Of a DNA stretch of 11,422 bases, positions 5,085 to 7,557 are shown one piece after another. Origin of the DNA: an uncultured Elusimicrobia bacterium (GTDB lineage: Bacteria > Elusimicrobiota > Elusimicrobia > Elusimicrobiales > Elusimicrobiaceae); assembly GCA_947164805.1 (NCBI GenBank), contig CAMUXX010000016.1, positions 1-11,422 of the forward strand, written 5' to 3'. The position numbers and the translations under genes are program-made. Each line of letters opens with the position of its first letter. Positions within the stretch are counted from its first letter, which is position 1. The notes beneath the pieces are model-generated. The model saw only the letters and a list, made by a program, of their open reading frames with translations, searched no databases and had not been told where the DNA came from.

Positions 5085-6221
5085 TTATTGCTGACTTTCT
5101 ATGTTGCTTATAATTATTTGTAAGTACTGTTTATATGCTTTATCTATTGAACATTCCTTATTGATAACTTGTGATATATTAAATTTACCAATATTTCCGG
5201 ATAATACTTCCTTAAACATCAATTCAGTATTTTCTATTTTAATGGAGTTTATTTCTTCTTTACTACGCGGTGAACAATTTAATTCTAACACTTTTTTAAT
5301 ATTATCCCTTGTCAAGAAAAAGGAATAATTTTTTCCTAACAAACTACAAACAAGACAAGGAAAACCTAATTGACCTGCCTCCAACATTACTTGTCCTACA
5401 CCGCCGATAAAAAGATACTTATTACCTTTCGCTTGCAAAAATTTTACTGTGTCTACTCTCCCTATAAAACAATCATCTGCAATATCATATTCCTTTTGTA
5501 GCATATTTTTAATCATATCACCCTCATAATTATCTATATCCCCGGCTATAACGGGGTTAATTTTCCAATGTTTACATAATTCTATAAAACTTTTTATAGA
5601 AGGAAGTTTATCACCCGCAATTCTAGAAATTATTAATGCTTCCCTTTGATTAGAAAATTTATAACAAACACTATGTTTAGAAACAGCATTGGCGATAACC
5701 AAGAATTTCCGAAGAAAAGGGACCCTTATTCCATGAGTATAATGGGAACAGATGACATAATCACAATATTTTAAAAAATCTATTTTCCATGAAATATGCG
5801 AAGCATGCAATACCGCACCTATCTTAACTTTACGTTTAAATAATTTGATAAAAAAAAGAGGGGAACCTCCACCTCCCTCATTCCATTCTATAATCTTAAT
5901 AGGGAACTTTATTGTCAATATTTTTAATAATATACTGTTTAATAACTTGCTCCTGGTCAACCACAAATCAGGCGAACCGTCCCCATCAACCGCAGCAACA
6001 AAGACTTTATATCCTTCTCTTTTCAACAAAGCAGAATATTGAAAAATTCGCTTTTCAACACCTCCTACTCTATTAAAATTATAGGTCATTAATATAATAC
6101 TTAAATTTCTAAATTTTGGCATTCTATTGAAGGTATTAAAACTTTTAATACAGCGATTTAATAAAAATAACCATTTTTTTGTTTTATTAATCTTACGTTT
6201 TACGTGATGCATTACCATCAT
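5085..6221 (-). CDS. GT4-like glycosyltransferase, divergent
   Basis: 378 residues with the two-half layout of GT-B fold sugar transferases. The N-terminal half shows SIILMTYNFNRVGGVEKRI (41-59) with the GGVE loop typical of GT4 enzymes, then YKVFVAAVDGDG (71-82). The C-terminal half shows ISRIAGDKLPSIKSFIEL (198-215) where GT4 enzymes have their KG stretch, PVIAGD (223-228), and FIGGVGQVMLEAGQLGFPC (271-289) where the E-x7-E nucleotide-sugar motif should be; only the second Glu (E281) is present. The enzyme is thus probably a glycosyltransferase with an altered site. The start at 6221 is chosen because AAGGGT precedes it; the internal Met34 at 6122 has no such site. It begins 9 bases after the stop of the GT2 gene, so the two form an operon. 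Confidence 0.8.
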   Translation of the reverse strand: MMVMHHVKRKINKTKKWLFLLNRCIKSFNTFNRMPKFRNLSIILMTYNFNRVGGVEKRIFQYSALLKREGYKVFVAAVDGDGSPDLWLTRSKLLNSILLKILTIKFPIKIIEWNEGGGGSPLFFIKLFKRKVKIGAVLHASHISWKIDFLKYCDYVICSHYTHGIRVPFLRKFLVIANAVSKHSVCYKFSNQREALIISRIAGDKLPSIKSFIELCKHWKINPVIAGDIDNYEGDMIKNMLQKEYDIADDCFIGRVDTVKFLQAKGNKYLFIGGVGQVMLEAGQLGFPCLVCSLLGKNYSFFLTRDNIKKVLELNCSPRSKEEINSIKIENTELMFKEVLSGNIGKFNISQVINKECSIDKAYKQYLQIIISNIESQQ

Positions 6222-6230
6222 ATTACCCTT

Positions 6231-7205
6231 TTATCTAAAAATTTTTGTTAATATATACACGCTATTCCAACCAAATATTTTTACCAGACCAAACAATATA
6301 CTCCAACGAACCTTGTAAATAAAGGAACAATATTTTATGGAATCAGAAGCCACTTTCCAAACCTTCTTTTGCAATGATAACTGTTCATAACGTATATTTT
6401 TAGGAAGTTTTCTAAAACTGCATATCCTCCACACCGCAAGCCTAATCCATTCATCCATAATCTCTGACTTAAGCAATTTCCTATCGGATAATTGATTATA
6501 TAAATTTAAGAAATTATGCAAACCGTCTATAATCATTTTGTGACTGTTTGAAGTAATACAATTACTAAGTCCTTTACGATACCAATACAATATTTCTTTT
6601 TTAACAACAATTTTAGAAGCTACTAAAAAAGATAAAGCTATAAATGGGCAATCTTCTGCCACATGCCCCGGGTAAAAAGAAAGTTTATTTTTCTTCAACA
6701 TATCTAAACGAAATAATTTTCCCCATACCACAGAATCATGATAACCGCAAATAAAGCGGTCCTTTAAGTCATTCTTTGGCTCTTTATAAAAAATATGGGA
6801 ATATTTTGCTTTGCTTTTAATTTTTCCATCGGCACTTATTTCTTCAAAAAAACATTTAGTTATATCTGCATTTTGTGCTTCTGCAGCATTATATAGTTTA
6901 CACAAATAATCTTCACTGATGATATCATCTGCATCAACAAAGGCAATATATTTACCTTGTGCTTCTTCCATCAGACGATTTCTTGTAACTGCTACTCCGC
7001 TATTTTTTTGGCTAATTACTCTTATTAATGGAATAGTTTTAGAGCACTCTTTTAATATGTTTAACGAATTATCTATAGAACCATCATCTATACATATAAC
7101 TTCAAAATCTTTAAAGGTTTGAGATTGAATAGATTTTAGACAATCAGATATATAGTTTTCAGCATTATATACCGGTATTAAGACTGATACGGCTGGCTTT
7201 TTCAT
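6231..7205 (-). CDS. GT2 family glycosyltransferase
   Basis: A 324-residue GT-A fold enzyme that transfers a sugar from a nucleotide sugar, probably in the cytoplasm at the membrane, to build a surface polysaccharide. Motifs: SVLIPVYNAENYISDCLKSI (7-26), the substrate loop IDDGSIDNS (39-47), NSGVAVTRNRLMEEAQGKYI (68-87), the DXD-type metal site FVDADD (89-94), and AEDCPF (183-188) carrying the likely catalytic ED pair. The C-terminal third is basic and hydrophobic, as in many O-antigen or capsule enzymes. It has the good ribosome binding site AGGAGA, but that site is the 3' arm of a strong hairpin at 7207-7243, and a roughly 200-base structured RNA lies just upstream. It is the first gene of the cluster and leads straight into the GT4-like gene. 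Confidence 0.93.
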   Translation of the reverse strand: MKKPAVSVLIPVYNAENYISDCLKSIQSQTFKDFEVICIDDGSIDNSLNILKECSKTIPLIRVISQKNSGVAVTRNRLMEEAQGKYIAFVDADDIISEDYLCKLYNAAEAQNADITKCFFEEISADGKIKSKAKYSHIFYKEPKNDLKDRFICGYHDSVVWGKLFRLDMLKKNKLSFYPGHVAEDCPFIALSFLVASKIVVKKEILYWYRKGLSNCITSNSHKMIIDGLHNFLNLYNQLSDRKLLKSEIMDEWIRLAVWRICSFRKLPKNIRYEQLSLQKKVWKVASDSIKYCSFIYKVRWSILFGLVKIFGWNSVYILTKIFR

Positions 7206-7206
7206 A

Positions 7207-7243
7207 TATTTCTCCTAAGTTTATATAGTACTTGGGAGAAATA
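7207..7243 (-). promoter_or_regulatory. Hairpin burying the ribosome binding site of the GT2 gene
   Basis: On the minus strand TATTTCTCC (7235-7243) pairs with GGAGAAATA (7207-7215), then after one C-A mismatch AAGT pairs with ACTT, around the loop ACTATATAA. The 3' arm contains AGGAGA, the Shine-Dalgarno sequence that serves the ATG at 7203-7205. With the stem formed, the gene should be poorly translated. Confidence 0.75.
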
Positions 7244-7245
7244 AC

Positions 7246-7447
7246 CAAATAAAAACGGCCATTCACTCAGTCTCGTCACTTAACCGATATAAACAGCCGT
7301 AGTCAGCCGTAAAAATATTACGGCAAACATTAGGCACTAAGTAAACGGGTAATTAGTCCGTTTACCTAGGTGCCATACAGCTGTTTTTGGAGTGACGAAA
7401 CTGCCCAAGCAGTAACACTTATTCTCTCAATAAGCGTCCAAAAACAG
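7246..7447 (-). ncRNA. Highly structured RNA of unknown class, 5' of the GT2-GT4 operon
   Basis: This gene-free stretch holds six helices on the minus strand. P1: 7437-7447 with 7381-7391 (11 bp perfect). P2: 7429-7437 with 7415-7423 (one G-U). P3: 7409-7413 with 7400-7404. P4: 7358-7374 with 7333-7348 (one bulge, one G-U). P5: 7318-7324 with 7306-7312 (7 bp perfect). P6: 7289-7300 with 7255-7266 (12 bp, four G-U), followed by TTTTTATTT. A further 13-bp pairing joins 7391-7403 to 7268-7280, the loop of P6, making a pseudoknot with P1. The wobble pairs of P2, P4, P6 and the pseudoknot become A-C clashes if read on the plus strand, so the minus strand is the transcribed one. I could not match it to the riboswitch, tmRNA, 6S, RNase P or SRP consensus sequences I know. 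It may be a riboswitch or attenuator, or a stand-alone small RNA ending at P6. Confidence 0.75.
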
Positions 7448-7452
7448 AACAA

Positions 7453-7481
7453 TTTGTATAAATTGCGTTTTACACTAACAA
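7453..7481 (-). promoter_or_regulatory. Candidate promoter of the structured RNA
   Basis: On the minus strand TTGTTA (7476-7481), a 17-base spacer and TACAAA (7453-7458). Each hexamer matches consensus at four of six positions. The expected start, 6-7 bases further, falls at about 7447, exactly the 5' base of helix P1. Confidence 0.5.
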
Positions 7482-7557
7482 TTTATTTACTTCTAAATTA
7501 ATTCTAACATTTTTATTTTATCATGTAAATTTTTTTACCTTATATTTCCTCTAAAAA

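Follow-up and report, generated by a model that had tools for sequence, protein, structure and literature searches.

The window, that is the whole analysed stretch of 11,422 nucleotides, carries on its minus strand (positions 7251-7485) a structured leader RNA of about 235 nt, located 5' of a gene for a family 2 glycosyltransferase. This leader is probably a cis-acting transcription attenuator that ends in a terminator before its own gene, a reading to which we give a probability of about 0.75. It belongs to what is apparently a family of on/off leader RNAs of Elusimicrobiota gut bacteria, often with many copies per genome. The family is of a known kind, the attenuator leaders, with two unusual traits, and it is apparently uncatalogued. 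Comparison of the copies shows the predicted helices P1 to P6 and a pseudoknot that varies from copy to copy.

Organization of the leader in the window

The elements of the leader and of its surroundings are the following, in the 5' to 3' order of the minus strand (numbering of the window).

7501-7529, minus strand: candidate sigma-70-type promoter, TTTACA-17-TAGAAT with an extended -10 (10/12 consensus matches)
7457-7485, minus strand: 5' hairpin P0, arms 7479-7485 and 7457-7465
7437-7447, minus strand: segment 1, the 5' arm of P1 (11 bp with 7381-7391)
7416-7436, minus strand: hairpin P2, arms 7429-7436 with 7416-7423; 7/7 family pairs change on both sides
7401-7412, minus strand: hairpin P3, short in the window copy; 8/8 family pairs change on both sides
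7391-7403, minus strand: PK1, first pseudoknot strand, 13 bp with 7268-7280
7376-7391, minus strand: segment 2, the 3' arm of P1 (7381-7391) and an extension beyond P1 that fits segment 3
7333-7374, minus strand: long hairpin P4, about 16 bp, arms 7358-7374 with 7333-7348; 16/16 family pairs change on both sides
7349-7357, minus strand: L4, apical loop of 9 nt, ACUAAUUAC, with the 6-nt palindrome UAAUUA, a candidate kissing loop
7306-7324, minus strand: hairpin P5, 7 bp, positioned from the fold and the model alignment
7292-7301, minus strand: segment 3, which would form the 5' arm of P6 (the terminator) or the 3' side of the antiterminator
7268-7280, minus strand: PK2, second pseudoknot strand, inside the terminator loop
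7251-7264, minus strand: segment 4 (7255-7264) and T-run (7251-7255) of a terminator-like hairpin
7208-7242, minus strand: hairpin over the ribosome-binding site AGGAGA (7211-7216), arms 7230-7242 with 7208-7220
6231-7205, minus strand: family 2 glycosyltransferase gene behind the leader (PF00535, E 1.9e-35)

All the arm pairs proposed in the first-pass annotation (P1 to P6, a 13-bp pairing and the ribosome-site hairpin) can be located in the window, and we equate its P6, 7292-7301 with 7255-7264 and further bases, with the stem of the terminator. The 5' end, which had been placed exactly at P1, has to be moved: the candidate promoter (7529-7501) would put it near 7494, ahead of P0. A small hairpin of variable sequence is visible by eye at the place equivalent to P0 in many other copies. 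The P3 of the window copy is poorly matched in the covariance-model alignment, and its 3' arm shares three bases with the 13-bp long-range pairing. A GC-rich hairpin followed by a T-run lies between the leader start and the start codon, the latter 45 nt past the T-run. The window terminator was not listed by a simple terminator scan restricted to loops of 3-8. No fixed -10 box was seen before the copies (527 hits against 467 in shuffled sequences, 172 copies).

The minus strand folds with an energy of -101.6 kcal/mol and a z of -8.1, a value equalled by 0 of 200 shuffles. The plus strand has a comparable z of -9.0, so folding energy cannot pick the strand. The covariance model scores 142.6 bits on the minus strand against 20.7 bits for the best plus-strand match, and in most other copies a gene follows the leader in the sense direction, in agreement with the minus strand. 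The plus-strand reading was rejected on the basis of this model and of the downstream genes; both, and not the energy, back the minus strand chosen in the first-pass annotation.

The hairpin that hides the ribosome-binding site of the glycosyltransferase gene is a possible extra translational control. It was also seen by eye in copy L005 and in L006 at position 118, both before homologues of this gene, and it is absent from several other copies. Elsewhere in the window, 2193-2525 encodes a DUF559 / MTES_1575-like endonuclease-fold protein, and 243-2048 and 5085-6221 are long open frames with no Pfam match. The frame 5085-6221 comes after the glycosyltransferase gene; as it has no Pfam match, the name GT4 that it had received is unconfirmed.

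Distribution of the family

A DNA search detected four places in the genome of the window, and a DNA search with the window leader gave matches at E <= 0.001 in 31 of 100 related genomes, own genome counted in. Of 28 places listed for a first alignment, 27 were aligned and 24 were used to build the covariance model R1 (L019, L021 and the first L006 copy were left out). R1 recovered in the genome of the window 28 full copies with an E of 1e-15 or lower, a minimum since scoring covered 150 of 556 candidates. Another five matches are weaker and lie across strong ones on the opposite strand. Copies are present in 80 of 90 genomes of Elusimicrobiaceae, in two of six genera, with 1 to at least 26 copies per genome where present. 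In a sample of the phylum Elusimicrobiota, 85 of 294 genomes have copies, and they belong to the family of the window and to one other. In the genus g2, a divergent copy is clear in the genome G018 (E 5e-12), where a second match is doubtful (E 5e-4), and the genomes G023 and G025 have none. The clear copy of G018 lacks P4, and the protein of its next gene begins, as judged by eye, like those behind leaders L014, L054 and L059. Of the 50 stretches recovered by a pattern scan of named genomes, 47 bear titles with Elusimicrobi- or Candidatus Avelusimicrobium, and many of these were obtained from rumen, rectum or faeces samples. The remaining three (Desulfobulbus, Saprospiraceae, Nostoc) were taken for chance matches.

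Some leaders are found in pairs close together (L006 at 118-317 and 1499-1699, L175, L244). Both copies of L006 also share an upstream stretch, and the DNA search with the window leader caught the second only. In L242 (from 159), short AT-rich repeats extend over an unusual length between P4 and segment 3.

Several copy sets were used for the counts below. L051, which is the same place as L111, was excluded from the later copy sets. The weak or cut copies L191, L180, L246, L250 and L206 were left out of the pseudoknot, 2:3-duplex, downstream-gene and loop counts, and L177 and L190 are missing from the pseudoknot counts because the P1 anchor was not found. The later set of 80 copies contains 79 new ones (L266 is the same place as L042); it was drawn from the same two genera with the same model and is thus not independent in descent.

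Covariation of the nested fold

Covariation in homologues, which the first-pass annotation had suggested as a check, is strong. Both sides change in 48 of 70 pairs among the 24 seeds and in 59 of 70 among 97 distinct copies; 0 of 500 shuffles reached as many in either case. Slid controls lower the pairing of the seeds from 91% to 38-48%. In the alignment of the 97 copies, which is fitted to the model, 94.0% of cells are paired against 78.1% in shuffles. Every pair of P2 to P5 changes on both sides, and P1 and the base of the terminator are nearly invariant.

A pseudoknot private to nearly every copy

PK1 consists of the bases just ahead of the 3' arm of P1, and its partner PK2 lies in the terminator loop; the two pair mostly over 9-13 bp. 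Pairings of 8 bp or more are present in 171 of 177 copies and in 75 of the 80 copies of the later set. Among the six copies under this threshold, L102 fails through a wrong anchor. The end of PK1 is at most one base from the P1 arm in 157/171 copies. The 13-bp pairing reported in the window is present, and comparison shows it to be a copy-specific pseudoknot and not one more arm of the fold.

We observe 160 distinct PK1 strings in the 177 copies. The identity of PK1 between copies is near random (0.32 in the main set, 0.36 in the second set), against 0.87-0.95 for the P1 arms. The own partner gave the best fit in 24 of the first 25 copies. Cognate partners score 24.7 and non-cognate ones 12.9 over the 177 copies, and the own partner ranks first in 141 copies and among the top three in 163; pseudoknots are shared between related copies, and chance matches are added by long windows. 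Exceptions to the private pseudoknot include L011 and L244_927. Within the genome of the window no PK1 fits the PK2 of another leader well (maximum 15.5), and the corresponding maxima in four other genomes are 14.5 to 19.0. Selection for orthogonal pseudoknots within a genome was not seen in five genomes (104 leaders), where non-cognate complementarity is 8.15 within and 8.06 between genomes. In the light of this equality, the privacy of the pseudoknots may be a mere free drift of paired bases. In L011 (259-467) the own pseudoknot is mismatched and PK2 is identical to that of L014; this copy may have arisen by recombination or be a switch broken in nature.

Two proposed competing states

Segments 1 and 3 are alike, as are segments 2 and 4. 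Segment 2 therefore has two possible partners, 1 and 3, and so has segment 3, with 2 and 4. P1 and the terminator, which had been listed as arms, would thus compete with a possible antiterminator. The two states are deduced from sequence and energies. The 2:3 duplex has an energy of -8 kcal/mol or lower in 169 of 179 copies, fixed windows cutting segment 3 in a few rows (e.g. L175_1268, L210, L224), and in 80/80 copies of the later set. In the divergent copies L176, L178, L021 and L032, segments 2 and 3 have changed jointly so that 2:3 is kept, and the consensus partners fit them worse. Other deviating copies show a poor 2:3 or no gain over the consensus partners (L018 -5.9, L077 -5.6, L083 -6.5, L165 and L190). 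The second set has lost the first 1:2 pair, with segment 2 still fitting segment 3, in 14 of 37 aligned rows; among these 37, two places occur twice and some rows are weak matches to the opposite strand.

The covariation of 2:3 is weak in the main set because segments 2 and 3 hardly vary: four pairs change on both sides, with as many in 11 of 500 shuffles, and the observed values are reached by 32/500 shuffles for paired cells and by 94/500 for the covariation score. The cognate 2:3 energy (-12.4) is near the non-cognate one (-11.6). A putative antiterminator pairing that excludes the terminator is conserved, weakly so when judged by the covariation of the main set alone. Directly past segment 3, a complement of at least 4 bp to the CCAAA of segment 2 is present in 74/97 copies.

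When the 97 copies were folded as RNAs cut at PK2, 2:3 was formed in 94 and 1:2 in 0. Full-length folds contained 1:2 in 76 copies, 3:4 in 81 and 2:3 in 15. The energy model used is free of pseudoknots. With both states forced, 2:3 was lower in 18/97 copies; one of these is the window copy, whose full-length optimum is the on state by 1.2 kcal/mol. The layout is that of an attenuator decided during transcription, and we infer that the leader works so in the cell.

Palindromic loops of P4

The apical loops of P4 form a set rather than a single conserved sequence, with the palindromes UAAUUA, UUAUAA, UCAUGA, UUCGAA, UCUAGA, UUGCAA and UAGCUA, or the shorter cores GAUC and AGCU, which comprise four bases only. 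A 6-nt palindrome is found in 93 of 175 loops; shuffles gave 10.3, with a maximum of 21 over 500 rounds. Of 11 loop-class representatives, hand-picked after the loops were known, six are palindromic, a value reached by 1 of 20000 shuffles. The later set has 67/80 palindromic loops (7.3 expected) and, without UAAUUA, still 24/37 (2.6 expected). The P5 loops have no 6-nt palindrome (0/65) and, being mostly of 4-5 nt, are a poor control. The same loop switches between palindromes, and several classes coexist within one genome (G034, G000).

A pairing of L4 elsewhere in its own leader was rejected: a further occurrence of the palindrome was seen in 3 of 67 leaders, for about 6.7 by chance. Since the two middle bases of the palindrome are adjacent and unable to pair in one chain, it is likely that two leaders kiss through their P4 loops. 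The argument from adjacent bases of a palindrome is also applied to OLE and GOLLD in the part of PMC12286853 considered here. Three points speak against such a contact: loops of the AAGCUAUG type, found in one subclade of the second family, have no consistent palindrome, the GAUC and AGCU classes offer four bases only, and L178 lacks P4.

Genes behind the leaders

Of 179 copies classified with a motif rule, 86 precede a prepilin-like gene, and in 44 a different gene follows whose ribosome site is good; the next gene is unclear for 42 copies and seven have no frame in reach, some copies of these last two groups being at contig ends. The rule misses some pilins (e.g. L089, L215, L219). The median distance from T-run to start codon is 59, 60 and 65 nt in the three scored gene groups. 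Judged by their N-terminal sequence, family 2 glycosyltransferase-like genes also follow L005, L006 and L023. Ten chosen non-pilin genes were compared with Pfam: two encode TPR proteins, two polysaccharide pyruvyl transferases, and the others GT8, rhamnan synthesis RgpF, sulfatase, bPH_2, HSDR_N and one unmatched lipoprotein-like protein. Similar small proteins are encoded directly behind L068, L076, L084, L085, L087 and L091 of the genome of the window; both of those tested with Pfam (L068, L084) are TPR proteins. Five genomes have 18 to 114 prepilin-like genes each (PF07963), so the leader is present on part of the pilins only. In G034, 20 of the 21 leaders examined precede pilins and one a lipoprotein-like gene. 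The leader-gene pairs L041/L043/L029, L054/L059, L022/L027 and L060/L061 recur between genomes.

The first-pass annotation regarded the element as a regulator of glycosyltransferase genes (GT2-GT4). A structured leader acting in cis before the GT2 gene, of no known class, is supported by the strong covariation, by the lack of Rfam match and by the start codon at 45 nt. The link to glycosyltransferases is incidental, because the family is multi-copy and its commonest downstream gene is a prepilin.

Comparison with known RNAs

Attenuators of the trp type follow a logic of 1:2 and 3:4 versus 2:3. Terminator/antiterminator attenuators and transcriptional riboswitches share with the leader four segments whose pairings are mutually exclusive and a terminator-like hairpin with a T-run before the gene. 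The leader stands apart from them by its palindromic P4 loops, by its many copies per genome, each with a private pseudoknot, and by the lack of a known aptamer. The DIS kissing loop of HIV-1 has a layout of 2+6+1. Like the P4 loop, it carries a 6-nt palindrome in an apical loop; according to the part of PMC7357161 considered, it serves dimerisation of a viral genome and its flanking purines are strictly conserved, whereas A/C and C are common in the P4 loops. OLE, ROOL and GOLLD are large RNAs with solved oligomer structures (PMC12286853, in part), whereas the leader has about 235 nt, many copies and no Rfam model, and its dimer is predicted from sequence.

With Rfam 15, the whole window contains only a tRNA above the gathering threshold and nothing near the leader. 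The leader region alone, searched with E up to 10, gave three microRNA/snoRNA matches, all far under threshold, and ten further loci gave three tRNAs and one tmRNA, all outside leaders. No family reaching threshold, this covariance search agrees with the initial impression that no known class is matched. In open-access titles and abstract openings on Elusimicrobi, Elusimicrobium and Avelusimicrobium, a field where most subscription papers lie outside this scope, the RNA is not described. PMC8632094 has no occurrence of the terms searched. The leader RNA is not described in the parts of PMC2864571 and PMC11109978 considered. The former reports the Termite-flg and Termite-leu motifs, structured RNAs of termite hindgut metagenomes, which have Rfam accessions, unlike the leader. 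The latter reports a weak riboswitch candidate before a tetrahydrofolate gene, and multi-copy private pseudoknots are not described in that part.

Proposed mechanism and alternative explanations

In the attenuator that we propose, the off state would be composed of 1:2 (P1) and 3:4 (the terminator). The on state would consist of the 2:3 antiterminator, lengthened by the PK1:PK2 helix, with segment 4 left unpaired. As long as the polymerase has advanced only as far as PK2 the on state would be favoured, and once segment 4 is made the off state would usually be lower in energy; the outcome would then be set by whichever state is first to form and persist. Although segments 1-4 are common to the copies, pairing would be kept in cis by the private pseudoknot, and the palindromic P4 loops would probably allow kissing of two leaders. 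A small molecule, a protein or a leader-leader contact are the candidate triggers of the switch. The targets would be mostly prepilins and other cell-surface genes.

As for the trigger, we put forward tentatively that the leaders dimerise via their P4 loops, with several specificity classes per cell, and that the attenuator responds to this contact. The growing leader would be bound by a leader of its class, either already terminated or nascent nearby, and so be shifted between terminator and antiterminator, and the private pseudoknot would hold the switch in cis. If true, this would be a regulation by the concentration of leader RNA, of the leader itself and of its class-mates, without ligand or protein.

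A riboswitch of a new class, in which the body P1-P5 binds a small molecule or second messenger and so picks terminator or antiterminator, is possible but we consider it doubtful. Its expression platform would be the same. The GEMM / c-di-GMP riboswitches of Geobacter are present in many copies per genome before pilin genes, as is the leader, which differs from them by its lack of Rfam match. GGDEF proteins, 1-3 per genome, were found in seven genomes, but their presence is unspecific. Against a riboswitch, no Rfam family is matched, riboswitches included, and the P4 loop, near-invariant in the first seeds, switches between unlike palindromes, which is unlike a binding pocket; P4 can even be missing, as in L178.

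Surface-sugar operons are classic targets of control by LoaP/RfaH or CsrA. A protein-dependent antitermination or RNA-binding site, for a NusG paralogue (LoaP/RfaH) or for CsrA, is improbable: among seven genomes (the genome of the window being 80% complete), CsrA was found in 0/7 and a single NusG match in 7/7, and control by these two was rejected; another protein may still take part.

The first-pass annotation had also considered a separate small RNA. A free-standing RNA that ends at the T-run, the gene having its own promoter, would agree with the candidate promoter of the window, the compact fold and the terminator-like 3' end. We regard it as quite improbable, for in many copies a gene with a Shine-Dalgarno sequence starts 20-60 nt past the T-run, in unrelated gene families, which leaves scant room for a second promoter.

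A MITE-like mobile or repeat element, scattered before genes with no regulatory role, would fit the copy number (0 to at least 26 per genome among relatives) and the paired copies (L006, L175, L244) but is very improbable, as the copies diverge with their structure kept by compensatory change, lie mostly directly upstream of a gene in its sense direction and recur with the same genes between genomes, and as the window leader has no match in phage records and the family pattern none in viral contigs, by which a phage origin was also rejected.

The proposed attenuator family represents a class of regulatory RNA with up to dozens of uses in small gut genomes that is missing from Rfam 15. It offers a handle on the choice that Elusimicrobiota make among up to 114 prepilin-like genes, and a natural library of private pseudoknots for the study of attenuation. 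Functional RNA oligomers are "rarely observed in nature" according to the part considered of a 2020 review (PMC7357161); if the P4 loops kiss, the family would provide a case of a bacterial leader that exerts regulation in the form of an RNA dimer.
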